NCBI GenBank assembly: GCA_031269875.1
Contig: JAISYM010000043.1
Coordinates: 1 to 64,000, forward strand
DNA: 64,000 bases
Reading direction: 5' to 3'
Origin: Synergistaceae bacterium
Lineage (GTDB): Bacteria; Synergistota; Synergistia; Synergistales; Synergistaceae
Each line of letters opens with the position of its first letter. Positions within the stretch are counted from its first letter, which is position 1. Both the position numbers and the translations under genes were made by a program. Below, piece by piece: positions 10,075 through 64,000 of this stretch. The notes beneath the pieces were generated by a model. That model had not been told where the DNA came from and ran no database searches. It worked only from the letters and a program-made list of their open reading frames with translations.

Positions 10075-11034
10075 ATGAGAACTAATGAAAAATCCAAAAT
10101 CTGTGTTGCCACCGTCGCGTACAATAATCCTGGTGAGTTGTCGGGCTTGTTCGAGTCATTGAGCCTCCAAACAAGGCCGATAAATGGCATAGTTGTGGTT
10201 GATAACTCGGAATCAGAGGATATGGCCAAGGCCAATCGCGCGGTTTTTGACGAGTTTGCGAAAGCGGTATCGTGGTCTGTGTTTGTGCCGCTTTACAGGA
10301 ACACCGGTTCGGCGGGGGGATTTCGCAGGGCTATGGAACTCGCGCATAAAGAAAACTTTGACTGGATCTGGATGCTCGATCAGGATGGATTGCTCGAGGG
10401 CGATTGCTTGGAACGTATGGCGGCTCATTTGGACGAAGCAAAGATTCTGTGTGCAAGGGTACTAAGCGCCGAAGACAGAAAATCCGATTTGGCGTTTACA
10501 AAAAAAATCAACTTCTGGGGCAGATTGTTGCCTATCGCTCAGGAGGGGGATTATCCCGTTAAAGTTTCTCTGTTCTGCACACACGGGACTCTGTTGGGCA
10601 GGGATGCCATTGATGCGGTGGGATACTACGATGATGAAAATTTTTTCTTCAGATGGGAAGATTTGGATTACGGATACCGAGTGCACGCTAAAGGTATATC
10701 AGCGCTTCTGATACGCGATGCTATCGCGTATCATCCTGAACGAGCGGCACCTAAGGCGTCTGACGTATATCCATCAGGACTTGCGGGGAAATTTGTATTC
10801 TACATAAGGAATATCTTCCCTTTATTTTTACCTTGTGACTGGAGGCTCGATTCAGAGTCGGATGTGTTGAGCCATAACAGCTATAAGGCTATTATACGCA
10901 AGCATATAAAGGGGTACAAGTTTTGGGGAGCTCTGTTTTTTTCGGTCTTTTTTCTGCTTTATGCAAAATGCCGAGGGGCGGCAATACCCCTTGGCAAGAC
11001 CATACGGGATTATATTGCGTTAAGGAAGAGTTGA
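10075..11034 (+). CDS. family 2 glycosyltransferase, first of three tandem paralogues
   Basis: A 319-aa GT2 protein of the rhamnosyltransferase-like (WbbL/RfbN) type: TVAYNNPGELSGLFESL, GIVVVDNSE, NTGSAGGFRRAMELA and the metal motif in WMLDQDG near residue 101. The acceptor-side signature CTHGTLLGRDAI and FRWEDLDYGYRV follow. The C-terminus ends in a hydrophobic stretch (KFWGALFFSVFFLLYA), a membrane anchor or amphipathic helix that recurs in the two genes that follow. Placement directly upstream of rmlBDCA suggests dTDP-L-rhamnose as donor (inference). Confidence 0.85.
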   Translation: MRTNEKSKICVATVAYNNPGELSGLFESLSLQTRPINGIVVVDNSESEDMAKANRAVFDEFAKAVSWSVFVPLYRNTGSAGGFRRAMELAHKENFDWIWMLDQDGLLEGDCLERMAAHLDEAKILCARVLSAEDRKSDLAFTKKINFWGRLLPIAQEGDYPVKVSLFCTHGTLLGRDAIDAVGYYDDENFFFRWEDLDYGYRVHAKGISALLIRDAIAYHPERAAPKASDVYPSGLAGKFVFYIRNIFPLFLPCDWRLDSESDVLSHNSYKAIIRKHIKGYKFWGALFFSVFFLLYAKCRGAAIPLGKTIRDYIALRKS

Positions 11035-11038
11035 TTTA

Positions 11039-12019
11039 ATGGCAAAAACGATACCAAGCCAACAGACAGTCTGCGCGGTCACCGTCGCGTATAATGACCC
11101 GGATGAGCTTAATAGGCTGTTGGAATCGATATCGGCGCAAACGCGTCCAGTCGACTGCGTGATTGTGGTCGACAACTCCGACGAATCGCTCCTGTCGGAT
11201 AGAAATAGCGTTGTCACGGACTCCGCGCTGTGTGAAATTTCGAACTTCGAATTTGTAAAAAGTCCCGTCAACCGAGGCTCTGCAGGTGGGTTTAAGATGG
11301 GAATGGCACTGGCCTATGCTAGAAATTACGACTGGATATGGCTCTTGGATCAGGATGGCATTGCCGCCAAGGATTGTTTGAAGAAATTGCTGGAATCGTC
11401 CGGGAAAGCCGGCATACTCTGTCCGAAAGTTCTATCTATCGGCGATGAGTCCGCGGAGTTATATTTCAGGGGCAGATTGAATTTTTTGGGAGGTTCTTTC
11501 CCTGTGTTCTCTTGTCCTGGCAAAGAACTCAGTATAACGCTGTTCGCGACCCACGGGGTCATGATAAGCAGGGCGGCTATCAGCGAGACTGGGTACTACG
11601 ACGACAGGAATTTTTTTTGCGGATGGGAGGATCACGATTACTCACAGCGGCTCAAAAAGAACGGCATAAAAATGCTGCTCGTCTCAGATGCTGTCGTCTA
11701 TCACCCGGATCTGATCGCGAAGTATAAAAAAACCAAAGCGGGGCGATTCCACTGGACGAGCCTCCTTTATATGTTCGTCAACTCTCATCTCCCGCTGCCC
11801 GCTTTCCTTGGGGTGGTGACGAAGACCGATATGAGTACCGAGCTCGGAGTTATCAGGAAGAAAACGCTCGTTGCTCTCACAAAGAAACATATAAGGGGAT
11901 TCAAGTTTTGGGCAGCGTTCATTTTCTCGTTCTTTTGTCTCGTGGTAATGAAGGTCTCCGGCAAGCCGGTTTTGTTTGTCGATTCGCTCAAGATGTACGC
12001 GGATATGACGCGTGATTAA
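11039..12019 (+). CDS. family 2 glycosyltransferase, second of three tandem paralogues
   Basis: A 326-aa protein co-linear with its upstream neighbour: TVAYNDPDELNRLLESI, CVIVVDNSDE, NRGSAGGFKMGMALA, WLLDQDG near residue 103, the ATHGVMISRAAI acceptor motif, then CGWEDHDYSQRL. The final ~45 residues (KHIRGFKFWAAFIFSFFCLV) repeat the hydrophobic C-terminal helix of the first copy. It starts four bases after the previous stop and overlaps the next gene by eight bases. The three copies most likely arose by tandem duplication and then diverged to make successive linkages of one repeat unit. Confidence 0.85.
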   Translation: MAKTIPSQQTVCAVTVAYNDPDELNRLLESISAQTRPVDCVIVVDNSDESLLSDRNSVVTDSALCEISNFEFVKSPVNRGSAGGFKMGMALAYARNYDWIWLLDQDGIAAKDCLKKLLESSGKAGILCPKVLSIGDESAELYFRGRLNFLGGSFPVFSCPGKELSITLFATHGVMISRAAISETGYYDDRNFFCGWEDHDYSQRLKKNGIKMLLVSDAVVYHPDLIAKYKKTKAGRFHWTSLLYMFVNSHLPLPAFLGVVTKTDMSTELGVIRKKTLVALTKKHIRGFKFWAAFIFSFFCLVVMKVSGKPVLFVDSLKMYADMTRD

Positions 12020-12959
12020 AGAGACTTCATCCTGTGCCGCGATAATCGTGGCGTTTGAGGATCCGGGCGATTTGAATGAGATTCTTGGCTCCGTGGCCGC
12101 GAATCGGCCCGGGTTTATCATCGTCGTGGACAACAGTGTGGATTTGGCGAATAGAGCGGAAAATGAGAGGATCGCAAAGGGTTTCGGCGCGAGGTATCTT
12201 CCCCAGTCCAGGAATCTCGGCTCCGCCGGGGGGTTTGCACTTGGAATGAAGCTTGGTTATAAGGAAGGCGCCGAATTGGTGTGGCTGTTGGATCAGGATG
12301 GATTGGCCGCCGAGGACTGCCTTTTAAAGCTGCTTCAGAACGCCAGGCGCGGGATTCTGTGTCCTGCCGTAGAGGCGACACTTGGGGGATATCCTCTCCC
12401 GGACTTCAGGTGCAAGCTGAATTTTTGGGGCGGGATTGTTCCGGCCGGCGATATGGACCGTATTTCAAAGATCGCGCTGGCTGGTACGCACGGGATTTTA
12501 ATTCACCGCGATGTGATTGAAGCGATAGGTTTTTACGATGGCAAGCGCTTTTTTGTGGGGGGAGAGGATTTTGATTACTCTTTGAGGGCGGCGAATGCCG
12601 GTTTTGATCTGTGGCTGATCCCGGACGCCAAGGTTTTCCACCCGGATCTCTCACGGAAATCCGCGTTGTCCAGAACCGCGCGATTTCTGCGCGGCATTGC
12701 CAGGGTTACATCACGCTTCACGCCGCAATTCCTCGGTTTTTTGCGCGGCAATATCAAGCCTGAAGGGTGCGAACGACGGGCCTTGATGATAAAATTTAAC
12801 ATGAGCCGATTGTCCGGTTTCCGGTTTTTTGCCGCCGTTGTTTATTCGGTGATTATTCTTTTCCTGCTCAAACTTGTTGGTTTGGATGTAAGGTTTTGGG
12901 GTACGTTGAAAATTTATATGAGCGCTGATAGTGTCAAAACGGAGGGGGTTGGGTCATGA
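12012..12959 (+). CDS. family 2 glycosyltransferase, third of three tandem paralogues
   Basis: A 315-aa protein with the same order of motifs as the two genes before it: [48 protein letters not shown] near residue 96, [13 protein letters not shown] and [11 protein letters not shown]. It is the most divergent of the three: the opening carries AFEDP in place of AYN[ND]P, and the helix before the tail reads [19 protein letters not shown]. The start is a GTG at 12012 inside the previous gene. The stop overlaps the rmlB ATG by four bases, tying it to dTDP-rhamnose synthesis. Confidence 0.83.
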
Positions 12960-57856: not shown

Positions 57857-59800
57857 TCATCCTGTTTGCCTCGTCTTTGCCACGACCTCGAAGGTATTCT
57901 CGAAAATTTCCCGGCCGACCACGCCGTATTCTCCCGGAGCGTATTGCGTCAGCCAGTCCCCCGGTTCTCCCCGCAGGGTTCCCCTTCCGCCCGCGAGATC
58001 GACCACGAAGGGCGCGTCGATTTTCATCGCGATGCACGGGGCCGTTCCACGTCTGATATATATTCCGTCTTCCCCGGGCGCCGTGCCGGCGCAAGGGGAG
58101 TAAGTCTCCATAAAACACTCTTTCGCAACGGGCCACGACTCGCCCAGCGTCCCCGTTAGCAGCGCGTCCCCTTCCTCATAGGAAACCTTGCCCTCGCGGG
58201 TGTCGAGGATTCCCCGCTCTCGGGCGAAAGCTACCGAGAAGGGGATGATTTTTTTCATCACGCGCACCGCCTCCTTCCTGGCGGACAGATCCTCGCCCGT
58301 GTAGTCGCGGATATAAAGCGAGCCGAACACGTCGCCTTTAATGACATACACATCGTCTTGCGAGCGCGCCACAAACCAGTCGTTCGGGTCGCCGCTGAGA
58401 TAATTTTCCGCATCCCATCGGGTGAACACCTTGACCCGCTTCTTGAGGCGCGACGCTGACACCTTGCTCTCGTCCGTGCCGACGCAGACATTGGCGAATT
58501 CCAGCAAGGACAGGCGCACCCCGGTGTTTTTGTTGAGGACGGTCGGGTTATAGGCCAAATCGGGCTCGAAGCGCTCACCGGTGAGCGTGTAGGACTCGAT
58601 AAATTTTTCGAGTTCGATGGGGTATACCTCGCCCTTTACCCCGATCATCAGAACCGTTGACTCGTCCGCCGTAATATCCATGTCTCCTTCGAGCATACGA
58701 ATTTGCAGGCCCGCTTTTCCCTCGAAGAGCGTGTTGCATGGCACGAACCCAAGTCTGACGGGCAATTTCCGGTAAGTTTTCATAGATGCCGTATTGATTA
58801 TCGCCTCATTCAGCCCGGACTCAGCCCCGCAGTCGATCACATCGCAGCCCCCGATGTAATCACGAACGGTCTCGGTGAAGTACGCGGAAAAAGACAGGTC
58901 GCCAAAGCGTTCCAGAAATTTTTTCCTCGCGATATATCCTCCCGCCTTCTCTTTGTGCCCTCCGCCCGAACCCACTCCGCGCGCAATCCAGACGGCCAGA
59001 TCGGACGCTTTGGCTTCGCGGGCGGCGGTACGGACGGAAAACTTGACACCCTCTATTCCCGCCGAATAAGCCACGGCAATATCCACGGTGTCCACCTGCA
59101 TGGACATGTCGCTGATGAACCCAAGCAGATTTGGGTCGCAAGGAGGCGTCGGGATGATGACGAAGCCGAACGCCTCGTCACAAGAGAGACCAGAGAGCGC
59201 GCTTGAAGCCGTTGAAAGATCGTGGAGCGTCAGGTTTGAGCGTTTCAGCTTTTTCAAAATACCTTGATCCACATCCAGAGCGTCCCACATATCGCGGTCG
59301 AGAGGATGCCTGATCTCCGAAAATCCGTTCGTGTCTGAAAACAATCCATAGTGCAGCGCGGTGCCAAGGCAGACGTCTATGGCGAACGATTCCTGCGCCA
59401 GCAAGCTCCAAACCAATGTTGAACAGCTTCCGAGCCACGGTCGCAGATCACAGAAGCCGGGCAGTTCGCGCTCCTGGATGTGGTGATCTATCACGGCAAT
59501 CCGGCTTGCGGCGACAGGCGACACGTTAGCCGCCCCGTGCTGACAATCGACGTTTATGATAAGGCCGTCCCACTCATCCATATCAGGTTCATGTTCGACC
59601 GGAATATGCAGCCATTCGATCATGCGCGTCAGATTCGGTTTCGAGACAGGGGCGCCGCGGTAAAAAAATTTCAGCCCCGGCGTTTTTTCCGCTTCAAAGT
59701 ATCGGTACAGGCCAAACCCGGAAGCCAGCGCGTCGGCGTCTGGGTTGTCATGGCATTGTATGGCGATTCGCCCCTCGTTTAACAGATCACTCAATCTCAT
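57857..59800 (-). CDS. long DHH/DHHA1-family phosphoesterase
   Basis: A 647-aa protein. Residues 1-290 are a DHH-family hydrolase of the NrnA/RecJ-like type: CHDNPDADALASG (metal-binding His17, Asp21, Asp23), Asp85, the DHH motif at 105-107, SDTNG (Asp157) and the DHHA1 glycine-rich GSGGGHKEKAGG at 277-288. The remaining ~350 residues match nothing I recognise and are not repeats or membrane segments. Ordinary NrnA is near 320 aa, so this is about twice the usual length. Expected chemistry: hydrolysis of phosphodiesters such as nanoRNA or pAp. Confidence 0.75.
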   Translation of the reverse strand: MRLSDLLNEGRIAIQCHDNPDADALASGFGLYRYFEAEKTPGLKFFYRGAPVSKPNLTRMIEWLHIPVEHEPDMDEWDGLIINVDCQHGAANVSPVAASRIAVIDHHIQERELPGFCDLRPWLGSCSTLVWSLLAQESFAIDVCLGTALHYGLFSDTNGFSEIRHPLDRDMWDALDVDQGILKKLKRSNLTLHDLSTASSALSGLSCDEAFGFVIIPTPPCDPNLLGFISDMSMQVDTVDIAVAYSAGIEGVKFSVRTAAREAKASDLAVWIARGVGSGGGHKEKAGGYIARKKFLERFGDLSFSAYFTETVRDYIGGCDVIDCGAESGLNEAIINTASMKTYRKLPVRLGFVPCNTLFEGKAGLQIRMLEGDMDITADESTVLMIGVKGEVYPIELEKFIESYTLTGERFEPDLAYNPTVLNKNTGVRLSLLEFANVCVGTDESKVSASRLKKRVKVFTRWDAENYLSGDPNDWFVARSQDDVYVIKGDVFGSLYIRDYTGEDLSARKEAVRVMKKIIPFSVAFARERGILDTREGKVSYEEGDALLTGTLGESWPVAKECFMETYSPCAGTAPGEDGIYIRRGTAPCIAMKIDAPFVVDLAGGRGTLRGEPGDWLTQYAPGEYGVVGREIFENTFEVVAKTRQTG

Positions 59801-59867: not shown

Positions 59868-61346
59868 CTACTTCTTTCCCTTGCCGAGATTCGACTTTTC
59901 GTCGAGCGCGGGTTGATAGGTAGGCCGGCGGGAGAGGGCAAGCTCGAACCATTCCGCCGCTTCCGTTTTATCCTTGAGTTTCAGGGCGGCCATCCCTGCC
60001 CAGTAAGCCGAGAGATAGTTGCACTCGTAATCTTTGGCGAGGGAGCCGAACGCCTCCAGCGCCTCCTTGTATCTTTTGGAGGAGTACATTTTATAAGCGC
60101 CCCTGTGCTTTATCCCGACGAGGTTCCTTTCGGTGCTGCCGAGCGGGAACGTCTCAATCAGCTTCGCGTCTGTGGTGGAGTCCGGATCAACGCCTTCCAC
60201 AGCCTTGGCCGGAGCGGTAACGGCGGCAGGTTTTGCCTGTTCCTCGGCGGGAGCCGGCGCCTCAGCCGCGACGATTTCCTCGGGTTCCGCCTTTCCCGCT
60301 GCGGGAACGCCGCTTGCGCCGGGATCGTCACCCTTGGCGAAGAGGTCGGCTTCGGAGGAGCTTCGCGCGGCCGGGCGTCCCTTCGGCAGTTTGTTCGCCA
60401 TATCCTTCGCTTTCTGCGCTGATATTGGCTCCACCTTGTCGCCGCGCCGGATATTTTGAGCGCCGCCACCGCCGTCGGCCAGTTTCGCCGTGCTGTAACC
60501 GACGTTTACGTCAGTCACTTTGAGTACCGCTATCGGGTTTTTCTCATGCGCTATGACGTTTCCGTCCATATCGCGCAGTGTCTTGCCGTCCGCGTAAACG
60601 AGATAGAGCGCGCCTTCCTTCGGTGCCGCCGTGTCGATAGTGAAGCTGCTTCCATCGGCGGCGATAACGCGCGGATATTCGTTCGCGATCGCGCCCCTCG
60701 TGTCATACGCCAACTGTGTCACGGCGTCCGCTATGGCGCGGGCTTCCAAACCGCCGAACTCTTTTTCAGCGTAACCGAACCCTCCGAAGCCGCCGTATCC
60801 CCAACCGGCAAAACTTATCCCCGCGCCGTCATTTTTCGACGATCCCTGCGCGCGCAGGGCAAGTTTTATCTCCGCTGTCGCAACGTCCACGACCCTCATA
60901 TCTATCGTCGCTTTCAGCTCCTCAGAACTGCCTCCGATGCCGACGCCGAAGAATCTGGCGCCTCCCCCGGCCGCGCCGCCGGAATTTTTGCGGTCGACCT
61001 GAGTTACGGAGCCGAGAAGCATATATTGCAACCCCATAATCCTTCCCACTTCCGCCGCGGTAGACGGGTCGACGAGCCCGGACATGCCGAATTTCAACTC
61101 CTCGCCGATTTTCTGAATCTGTTCGCGCTCAGAGACTGAGATGCTCTTAGACTGAGCGAGCTCGAAGGTGAAAAGGTCGGTGATGATCGAGACCTGCTGG
61201 CCGGACAACCAATCGGCCTTGTTGGCGAAAGGCGCTATCCCCACCCTTATCTTCTCGCCCGCGCAAGCGACGTTCGCTTGTGCGGTGATAAACAGCACGG
61301 CCGCGAGAACAGCCGAAAATATCTTATTTTTGTCCGATTTTTTCAT
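59868..61346 (-). CDS. CsgG-like exported protein with C-terminal TPR-like part
   Basis: A 492-aa exported protein. Signal peptide at residues 1-29 (SAVLAAVLFITAQANVACA); a CsgG/HfaB-like domain about 32-230 (VGIAPFANK, EREQIQKIGEELKFGMSGLVD, TAAEVGRIMGLQYMLLGSVT, MRVVDVATAEI); a low-complexity Ala/Pro/Glu linker at about 330-400; and a C-terminal TPR-like helical pair (AYKMYSSKRYKEALEAFGSLA). The last residue of the signal peptide is Ala before Gly, and the -3 residue is Asn, so a lipobox is not evident. ATG 61346 is preferred over ATG 61364 because GGGAG lies eight bases before it. It is the distal gene of the cluster. Confidence 0.75.
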   Translation of the reverse strand: MKKSDKNKIFSAVLAAVLFITAQANVACAGEKIRVGIAPFANKADWLSGQQVSIITDLFTFELAQSKSISVSEREQIQKIGEELKFGMSGLVDPSTAAEVGRIMGLQYMLLGSVTQVDRKNSGGAAGGGARFFGVGIGGSSEELKATIDMRVVDVATAEIKLALRAQGSSKNDGAGISFAGWGYGGFGGFGYAEKEFGGLEARAIADAVTQLAYDTRGAIANEYPRVIAADGSSFTIDTAAPKEGALYLVYADGKTLRDMDGNVIAHEKNPIAVLKVTDVNVGYSTAKLADGGGGAQNIRRGDKVEPISAQKAKDMANKLPKGRPAARSSSEADLFAKGDDPGASGVPAAGKAEPEEIVAAEAPAPAEEQAKPAAVTAPAKAVEGVDPDSTTDAKLIETFPLGSTERNLVGIKHRGAYKMYSSKRYKEALEAFGSLAKDYECNYLSAYWAGMAALKLKDKTEAAEWFELALSRRPTYQPALDEKSNLGKGKK

Positions 61347-61360
61347 AGACCTGTCTCCCT

Positions 61361-61987
61361 TCATTCCTCGAAATGTTTTGTCTTCATTGCCGCGACATGC
61401 TTTTCGACGCTGTCGCGCACCGCCGTGGCCAGGATGCCACCGTATTGGACGCTCCCGAAGCCGCCGAACACCGTCAATATGCCGCCGGCCTCGCGTTTGG
61501 CCGATCCTTGAGTCGCTCCCGCGTAGATAACCTCGCCGGTAGAACTGTCCACTATGCGTATGTCGAGTTTCGCGTAAGCCGTTTTAGACGCCGCCGCGCC
61601 TCCCGCTATCCACGGAATGACTATCGCGCCGCCCGACGCGTTGTAGTAATATCCGGTAATCGCGCCGATCATCTGGTATTTTGCGCCGACAATCTTACCG
61701 ACCTCCGGCGCGGTCTCCATATCCATGAGGCCGGATTGCGAGAGCTTGAGTTCTTCACCGATGACATCGAGCCGATCGCGCTCCACAAGCCTGAAAAGTC
61801 CGGCCTCGTAAAGCTCGGTAGTCATCATGTCCGTTATAGCGTCGGCGGGAGGCTCGAACGACTTTTCATCTGTCTTGTTCTCGAACGTCTTGACCGCAAG
61901 GGTAGGTTTCGCTTCAGCCGAGGCGCAAGCGTATAATACGGCGAGCGACGCCAGAAACAAAAACGCGATTTTGCGCGATTTTTTCAC
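61361..61987 (-). CDS. second CsgG-like exported protein
   Basis: A 208-aa CsgG/HfaB-like protein, essentially the N-terminal half of its downstream neighbour: LAVKTFENKTDE, ERDRLDVIGEELKLSQSGLMD, VGKIVGAKYQMIGAITG, LDIRIVDSSTGEVIYAG. The signal peptide is residues 1-25 (IAFLFLASLAVLYACASAEA). A Gly-rich loop (GGAIVIPWIAGGAAASK) corresponds to the pore-loop region. GTG 61987 is chosen since GGAGG stands eight bases before it. CsgG itself forms an outer-membrane pore for curli; no curli subunit is visible here. Confidence 0.75.
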   Translation of the reverse strand: MKKSRKIAFLFLASLAVLYACASAEAKPTLAVKTFENKTDEKSFEPPADAITDMMTTELYEAGLFRLVERDRLDVIGEELKLSQSGLMDMETAPEVGKIVGAKYQMIGAITGYYYNASGGAIVIPWIAGGAAASKTAYAKLDIRIVDSSTGEVIYAGATQGSAKREAGGILTVFGGFGSVQYGGILATAVRDSVEKHVAAMKTKHFEE

Positions 61988-62001
61988 AACCGTTCCTCCG
62001 C

Positions 62002-62553
62002 TCATTTGACAAGCTCTCCCGCGACGGCGCCCGCCGCGTAGTCTATGGACTTCGTGCGCGCCTCGTCCTCCGAATAGCCCACCTGCTTGGCCATTATCGT
62101 TTTACGCGAGGCGTAAGAATAATTGCCCTTCGAGTCGCGCGCGTTGAAAGTGGCCGACGCGGTTCCCGTGTACATCTTGAACTCGTTTAACGCCGGGTTG
62201 TCCACGCGGAATTTGACAGTGACGGCCGTGCCGGCCCCGTACGAAAAACTGATTTTCATAAGCGCTTCGACGTCGCCGTTCAAGTAAGCGGCGTCGGCTT
62301 TTTTCTGAGCGGCCGCCTTGTGGATCTGGCGCTTTTTAGCCTCGTCCACCACTTTGTAGCCGGAAGATACCAGTTCCTGAATGACAGCGTTTTCGACTAT
62401 ATCAGTATATTCGGCGGACTGGCCGTTCATGGGCACGGCGATTACCGCGACATCGCCCTTTTTCGGCATGGCGGCCTCGGCGGGAACCCCGGCCGCTGAG
62501 ACGGCGAGCAGCGAGATCCAGCACAGACAGAGAAAAACAAAACGTTTCATCAT
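62002..62553 (-). CDS. exported protein of unknown function in the CsgG cluster
   Basis: A 183-aa protein with a signal peptide (residues 2-28, ending AEA). The mature part looks like a small periplasmic domain: DVAVIAVPMNGQSAEYTDIVENAVIQ resembles the first strand-helix of CsgG-like or penicillin-binding-associated LpoB/GNA1162 folds, and TVKFRVDNPALNEFKMYTG is beta-rich. No family can be named with confidence. It is 15 bases after its FlgT-like neighbour and overlaps nothing. Confidence 0.6.
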   Translation of the reverse strand: MMKRFVFLCLCWISLLAVSAAGVPAEAAMPKKGDVAVIAVPMNGQSAEYTDIVENAVIQELVSSGYKVVDEAKKRQIHKAAAQKKADAAYLNGDVEALMKISFSYGAGTAVTVKFRVDNPALNEFKMYTGTASATFNARDSKGNYSYASRKTIMAKQVGYSEDEARTKSIDYAAGAVAGELVK

Positions 62554-62565
62554 TAACCTCCCTTT

Positions 62566-63717
62566 TTATTCCTTCCACCCGGCGTCTATCGTCTGCTGCG
62601 AAACGCGGGAAATGGACGAACCGTTTTTGGACAGCCACCTGGCCAGGGCATTCGCGTCCATCTCTGACACCACGTCGAGTTCGAGCGTCCCGTTGTCGTA
62701 AGAGCGCTGATAAACGCTCTTCACCCCGTCAAGCGTCTCCAAACTTTCGATCAGCTCAAACACCGCGTCGAACGGAATACCGGCGATTTTTATCCTGTAG
62801 GTCGGAGCGCCGAGCGAGCCGAACATCGAGTAGGCTATGGAGTTTACCATCTTCTTGGCGCCCTGGGAAGCGCATATCTGAAACCCTTTTACCGCCGCGT
62901 CTTCCTCAGTGGTTCCCCTCGTTATCTTCTGGTCCGCCTCCGACGTGTTGAAGGCAATCTGCTGCGCTGTATTTGTGAGGACGGCTTTTAACTGGACGGA
63001 GGCCCGCCCGCTGTATACCGGGTGTCCGCCGGCCTTGACGCTCACGAACGAACCGGCGTAAGCTTTCCCCGACACGAGGACGTCCGCTTTGAAATTTCGG
63101 GCGATACGAAGCAGCTCCTCGTCGTTCTGCTTCTTCCTGGCTTCATTTAGTTGCACGTCGGAGAGTACGTCGGACTGCGCTTTGTCCACGATATGCAGCC
63201 CTGAGTTCTGAAACACCCTCTCGACCTGTCCTTCGGATGTATACATGAAAGGCTGTTTCTCAGCGACGCGTTCGTCGATGATTATCAGAACTCTCGGGTT
63301 TCCGAGCATGTCGATCGCCGCGGGCCCGAGGACGCCATCGAGCGCCGCGGCGGAGACGACGGCGCGCGCCTCTATGGTGATGAGGCCGTCCGCGTCCTTG
63401 CGCTCGTTCAGGACCTCGAATTTTTTGATGATCCCCTGCGCTTTCGAGAATACTTTGTCGGTGACGACCTGATAGTCCTTCATCTCCGTGTAGCCGTCGA
63501 TAAAAGCGCCTATCCCCTGCTCTATGGCGCTGCGCTTGGCGTCATCCTCGGCGGCCTTGCGGCTTGTGCCGGTCCCGACCGCTTCGTTCACAACAATCTC
63601 CCCGGCCGTAATCGCCGCGGCTGAAGCGCGGTCCGCAAACGCGGCGGCGAACAGTAATATCGTGACGAGAACCGGGAAAAATTTACCTCCCATGAGAGAT
63701 CGTCTTATTTCACGCAT
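62566..63717 (-). CDS. FlgT/LPP20-like exported protein
   Basis: A 383-aa protein with a signal peptide (MREIRRSLMGGKFFPVLVTI onward, cut after RASA). Residues 40-130 have the FlgT N-terminal/LPP20 pattern: AVGTGTSRKAAEDDAKRSAI, QGIGAFIDGY, KAQGIIKKFEVLNE and ITIEARAVVS. The middle part (NPRVLIIIDE, HIVDKAQSDVLSDVQ) matches the second FlgT-type domain, which resembles TolB/CsgG N-domains. In flagellated bacteria FlgT forms an outer-membrane basal ring, but LPP20-like proteins are not flagellar. ATG 63717 lies 12 bases after AGGGA and overlaps the upstream gene by 13 bases. Confidence 0.65.
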   Translation of the reverse strand: MREIRRSLMGGKFFPVLVTILLFAAAFADRASAAAITAGEIVVNEAVGTGTSRKAAEDDAKRSAIEQGIGAFIDGYTEMKDYQVVTDKVFSKAQGIIKKFEVLNERKDADGLITIEARAVVSAAALDGVLGPAAIDMLGNPRVLIIIDERVAEKQPFMYTSEGQVERVFQNSGLHIVDKAQSDVLSDVQLNEARKKQNDEELLRIARNFKADVLVSGKAYAGSFVSVKAGGHPVYSGRASVQLKAVLTNTAQQIAFNTSEADQKITRGTTEEDAAVKGFQICASQGAKKMVNSIAYSMFGSLGAPTYRIKIAGIPFDAVFELIESLETLDGVKSVYQRSYDNGTLELDVVSEMDANALARWLSKNGSSISRVSQQTIDAGWKE

Positions 63718-64000
63718 ATTATAACTTTGCATTCCCTGCGGAAGTCATACGAGCTGCCGCGGATTTTAGCGGCGGCTGAATTGGGGATGACTATCGCCAC
63801 GTTATCGGCGCCGAGACGAATGGCTTTGGTCGTTATGGGTTTCGCTGCCACTCTTATTTCTCCCTTCGCGTAATCGAAATTGTTGTAGTAAGTGCAGAGC
63901 CCCGATTGGGCGAGGAATTTCTGATCGGCGAAATTGACGCCGTACACTTCCCTGCCCGATTCGTCGACTACGTAAAACGAAAGAGAGGGGACTATCGAAA
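63705..64000 (-). CDS. partial protein of unknown function (5' end outside window)
   Basis: The last 98 codons of a gene that continues past the window edge; the frame is open through base 64000. Visible residues include LSFYVVDESGREVYGVNFAD and LGADNVAIVIPNSAAAKI; the sequence is beta-rich and resembles a periplasmic LPP20/FlgT-associated domain, but no firm family. It overlaps the FlgT-like gene by 13 bases, so it belongs to the same operon. Confidence 0.5.
   Translation of the reverse strand, partial: SIVPSLSFYVVDESGREVYGVNFADQKFLAQSGLCTYYNNFDYAKGEIRVAAKPITTKAIRLGADNVAIVIPNSAAAKIRGSSYDFRRECKVIICVK

Follow-up and report, generated by a model that had tools for sequence, protein, structure and literature searches.

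CsgG and PelC form export rings and are lipid-anchored, as are the flagellar proteins FlgP and FlgO, and EssC is the ATPase that serves as motor in type VII secretion systems (T7SSs). Even for mycobacteria, it has not been settled how a T7SS crosses the outer layer. For the flagellum, the H-ring of Vibrio mediates outer-membrane penetration (PMC7990780). The T7SS subtypes T7SSc to T7SSj described by Garrett et al. 2024 (PMC11217815) all come from Bacillota and Actinomycetota, several of them with kinase, phosphatase and FHA parts, and the text of that paper does not mention Synergistota. For some Gram-negative phyla, a survey of polymorphic toxins from 2012 (PMC3482391) noted solo WXG proteins together with a distinct ATPase, Synergistetes not being listed among these phyla. 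Searches of the open-licence literature for a T7SS or WXG100 in Synergistota, Synergistetes or Fretibacterium returned nothing relevant, and in the accessible literature no published T7SS subtype has ring-gene partners or comes from Synergistota; any novelty claimed here is relative to that literature.

Gene layout and domains of the cluster

The window, i.e. the whole stretch of 64,000 nucleotides analysed, comprises positions 1-64000 of a contig of 76,368 bp, which extends 12.4 kb past it, and belongs to a genome of 2.58 Mb in 146 contigs (94 % complete; G000 in our analysis). At its end lie five successive ORFs, A to E, all on the minus strand and each with an N-terminal hydrophobic segment, in line with the five consecutive exported-protein genes of the initial annotation (Table 1). 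Following the contig past 64 kb revealed a sixth exported gene, F, and no curli subunit genes just outside the window. F lies 16 bp from E and is counted into the run, which is a six-gene operon of exported proteins. The overlaps reported initially hold (A/B 4 bp, B/C 4 bp and D/E 28 bp), whereas the gap between C and D measures 12 bp and not 15.

Table 1. Genes of the cluster, with positions on the contig.
Gene	Position	Strand	Length (aa)	Product	Evidence
A	59868-61364	-	498	exported CsgG-domain protein	PF03783 1e-28; C-terminal linker; TPR_16 3e-6; signal segment
B	61361-62005	-	214	exported CsgG-domain protein, paralogue of A	PF03783 1.7e-27, profile 5-199/210
C	62002-62553	-	183	small exported protein, PelC/GNA1162/CsgG-type fold	AF2 model and Foldseek
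D	62566-63732	-	388	FlgT-like exported protein	Foldseek, profile, Pfam on homologue
E	63705-64000 in window; complete 63705-64562 on contig	-	285	FlgP-like exported protein	profile match
F	64579-65721, past window edge	-	380	exported protein, sixth gene of the run	

Upstream of F lie a membrane LuxR-type regulator and then a solute-binding protein (contig 65914-68980), and genes of similar start sequence and size also precede the operon of the closest relative locus, L049. Downstream of A follows an unrelated gene (window 57857-59800) for a protein in which a DHH phosphoesterase-like part is joined with a PGDYG domain; in L049, a TMEM43-family gene (11032-12246) comes immediately after the operon. 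A promoter scan of the region found no sigma-70-like site.

A and B contain near-complete CsgG domains (PF03783), are paralogues of each other (hhalign E 3e-36) and are the only CsgG genes in the window's genome. The single TPR of A lies at about 430-485, after a linker, so that the description of two CsgG-like paralogues, one with a linker and a TPR-like tail, proved accurate. The LpoB profile also matches B (5e-14) and A (7e-7), as would be expected of LpoB-like activators of peptidoglycan synthases or of other soluble periplasmic factors; however, CsgG far outscores LpoB on B (97 vs 53 bits), the LpoB equivalog model reaches 44 bits against a cut-off of 110.6, and the FlgP/FlgT partners in the same operon point to a ring. 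An LpoB identity was therefore rejected, and this explanation appears very unlikely. A curli system was ruled out as well, i.e. no curli gene adjoins the cluster, with the contig checked past the window edge, and Curlin_rpt (PF07012) was absent from the window's genome and four relatives (E. coli control positive).

The fold of C was recognized by structure: a search of its sequence against the PDB gave no match, and Foldseek with its AF2 model (pLDDT 83.8) returned PelC, GNA1162, CsgG and FlgT, all at probability 1.00, which supports the earlier comparison with GNA1162. C also resembles the middle of D (hhalign 4e-9), a protein composed of an N-terminal FlgP/FlgT_N-like domain, this C-like domain and a C-terminal alpha/beta domain. 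The top Foldseek matches of the AlphaFold model of D (pLDDT 84.5) were FlgT of the Vibrio ring (8z5n, 1.8e-10) and FlgT (3w1e, 2.6e-9), nearly full length, and its N-terminal part matched FlgP (9hmf, 1.6e-4); the global TM-score against FlgT is only 0.3, i.e. in the monomer model the domain order agrees but the overall shape does not. Pfam FlgT_N exceeded its cut-off in the D homologue of locus L056. By profile search, E matched FlgP of C. jejuni (9hmf, 1.3e-13) and further FlgP chains; this likeness came from the PDB profiles, the LPP20 Pfam model giving no match in eight genomes. The FlgT/LPP20-like assignment made initially is supported by the matches of the D homologue and of E; for F nothing was found beyond one weak match. 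With such partners and no curli gene, the earlier idea of an envelope complex unlike curli gains support.

Since CsgG and PelC are export rings, the two CsgG paralogues and the PelC-fold protein could also belong to an exporter that releases a fibre or polysaccharide and has no connection with flagellum or T7SS. We regard this as unlikely, given that there is no curlin repeat and that no fibre or polysaccharide gene recurs beside the module in the loci examined.

All of these proteins carry a signal-like hydrophobic segment at the N-terminus, with no other membrane helix. Lipobox-like motifs were rare among the module proteins in a pattern test (A 1/38, B 4/31, C 4/43, D 6/55 and E 4/29), B of the window having a weak one (LYAC). 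Of the outer-membrane ring of periplasmic lipoproteins proposed in the initial annotation, the ring may stand in outline, whereas the lipoproteins are not supported, given these counts.

Distribution in Synergistota and linkage to type VII secretion genes

D is present in 80/188 Synergistota genomes, and the 52 GTDB loci recovered with a D alignment all come from Synergistota, many of them being in MAGs of animal guts; the D closest to that of the window shares 88 % identity with it. Many relatives retain the gene order E-D-C-B-A, which rules out a chance cluster, and the deepest branches show E-D-E'-A-C. Omp85 was found, so an outer membrane is expected.

The main point, missed by the initial annotation, is the link of this module to a T7SS in relatives. 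EssC occurs in 23 genomes of the Synergistota set, and D was found in 23/23 of these vs 57/165 of the others (Fisher 4e-10, kinship ignored). In 17 of the 23, D and EssC share contig and strand, with D upstream at a distance of no more than 10 kb; in two more (G030 and G142) the contig ends would fit such a layout, and in four (G118, G120, G131 and G174) the contig breaks off within or at EssC. The last module gene is 0-21 bp from essC in uninterrupted loci, a few loci having an intervening gene. In this subset, the gene after the module encodes a protein of about 1,500 aa that contains FHA and FtsK/SpoIIIE domains; in loci L043 and L027 this protein scores 928 and 983 bits against the TIGR03928 equivalog (cut-off 778), and the best PDB match of the module-linked EssC is YukB of B. 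subtilis. Behind EssC come genes for a YukD-like protein, for several WXG100 proteins and for further small proteins, frequently along with a PP2C phosphatase and a Ser/Thr kinase. WXG100 proteins above the cut-offs of TIGR03930 and PF06013 are among them (two above cut-off in L043), and the YukD/EsaB-like protein reaches 25.3 bits with PF08817 (cut-off 27), its size and place fitting. EssB/YukC (PF10140) was absent from nine EssC genomes tested, with a positive B. subtilis control.

Several loci hold further genes of note. The T7SS-linked loci L137 (7223-16617) and L138 (9563-17155) contain several CsgG-type paralogues, including proteins of 796-848 aa, of which the 848 aa one, a long paralogue of A, shows weak FlgT_M and FlgT_C matches. 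A candidate T7SS substrate or wall hydrolase is encoded in L136 (14754-15623); its head weakly resembles WXG100 and its tail, also weakly, a CHAP/amidase domain. In L043 (7408-8667) and L133 (16830-18152), the WXG100 genes are followed by proteins of 419-441 aa with no confident known domain, possibly secreted substrates.

Taken together, the cluster probably represents a periplasmic or outer-membrane ring module made from parts of the flagellar H-ring/basal disk and of CsgG/PelC, which would serve an envelope-spanning machine, i.e. a T7SS in many Synergistota, the copy in the window being stand-alone. Based on the signal segments seen, its proteins would leave the cytoplasm via Sec and, judging by homology, could build stacked rings beneath the outer membrane, with E and D as FlgP/FlgT-like scaffold and C and the CsgG proteins B and A as ring or pore; the TPR tail of A may reach for partners. 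The machine served would be one that has to cross the outer membrane or be anchored there. For many Synergistota this would be the T7SS, with the module placed immediately before essC in an operon-like series of genes, and there the module may carry the secretion path from the inner through the outer membrane. The linkage suggests that the ring module could be the outer-membrane route of the T7SS in these relatives. Going further, we see about an even chance that the module, built from FlgP, FlgT and CsgG parts, plugs into different machines in Synergistota and, with EssC and WXG100, makes up a two-membrane T7SS with its own outer-membrane stage, a subtype undescribed in the open-licence literature searched.

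In the D tree, the window copy forms a fully supported clade of stand-alone copies with L049 and L048, and every T7SS-linked D falls into a separate, well supported clade of 28 rows. Stand-alone D also occurs in the latter clade, which indicates that the linkage changed several times. Considering that 57/80 module-bearing genomes are without T7SS, the module probably did not serve a T7SS ancestrally. In L024 (6068-11061), the genes after a stand-alone module encode FHA-RDD, FHA and Ser/Thr kinase-Sel1 proteins, which looks as though a set of phosphorylation genes remained with the ring module in the absence of EssC.

Candidate clients of the window copy

Neither EssC nor WXG100 was found in the window's genome, and its D lies outside the T7SS-linked clade. 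A T7SS remnant in the window was therefore rejected, and from such comparisons the copy is best read as a stand-alone paralogue and not as a broken T7SS. The same two observations speak against a T7SS sited in an unassembled part of the genome, as does the contig itself, which runs on into the DHH gene where linked genomes have the module abutting essC. Despite a genome 94 % complete in 146 contigs and a linked module in a genome of the same genus (G002), we consider such a hidden T7SS very unlikely. L049, the locus nearest to the window copy, and the T7SS-linked L075 co-occur in one MAG (JAISYN); this was not counted as evidence because G171, with a contig like L075 in gene content, is listed at 7 % contamination.

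For the stand-alone copy of the window, we infer the flagellum to be the likeliest client, followed by an exporter of another kind. FliF and FlhA are present in its genome. FliF was found in 74/80 genomes with D vs 55/108 without (kinship ignored), and of the six D genomes without FliF, four keep FlhA or part of it. This co-occurrence and the FlgP/FlgT identity of E and D make a flagellar ring plausible: stand-alone modules, including that of the window, would be the H-ring or basal disk (FlgO/FlgP/FlgT) of the Synergistota flagellum, surrounding the L-ring, holding the stators and aiding passage through the outer membrane, as the H-ring does in Vibrio (PMC7990780). The genomes tested yielded no classical LPP20 gene, which agrees with this. 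However, 55 flagellated genomes are without D, the correlation with FliF ignores kinship, and none of the loci examined, with gene maps of many, has a flagellar gene adjoining the module. Moreover, FlgP and FlgO are lipoproteins, and the module proteins mostly are not. On balance, we view this flagellar assignment as tentative, well short of probable. Flagellar gene linkage in the deepest families gave no direct support either, the neighbours there being housekeeping genes and one chemotaxis receptor (by Pfam: TatD, MetRS, methylases, PAP2 and HU, besides the receptor).

Comparison with described systems

The cluster is real and combines known ring parts in a new way, and the T7SS link in relatives, drawn from genome comparison, is the valuable result. 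That essC shares an operon with ring genes of the flagellar outer-membrane type in a phylum with two membranes offers a concrete candidate for the crossing step, and if this is true, one ring module would be common to a motility organelle and a secretion system.

With the curli exporter CsgG (and HfaB), the cluster shares the CsgG domain of A and B, but curli subunit genes are missing, a lipid anchor is absent in most cases, A bears a TPR tail and the partners differ. The lipoproteins PelC and GNA1162 resemble C in fold (Foldseek probability 1.00); C, however, is about 12 % identical, the lipobox is usually missing and no Pel genes were seen. Like T7SSb to T7SSj (EssC/TsxC, WXG100, YukD, PP2C and kinase; PMC11217815), the relatives have EssC, a YukD-like gene, WXG100 and often PP2C and a kinase, here preceded by the module. 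In contrast to the published subtypes from Bacillota and Actinomycetota, they belong to a two-membrane phylum, no EssB was found in them and exported ring genes precede essC; the window's genome has none of this T7SS. The flagellar H-ring/basal disk (FlgO, FlgP and FlgT) of Vibrio and Campylobacter shares with the module a FlgP-like E, a FlgT-like D of what appears to be the same domain order, CsgG-fold proteins and flagellated hosts, whereas the module lies away from flagellar genes, mostly lacks a lipobox, comprises five or six genes, two of them CsgG paralogues, and also occurs beside a T7SS.
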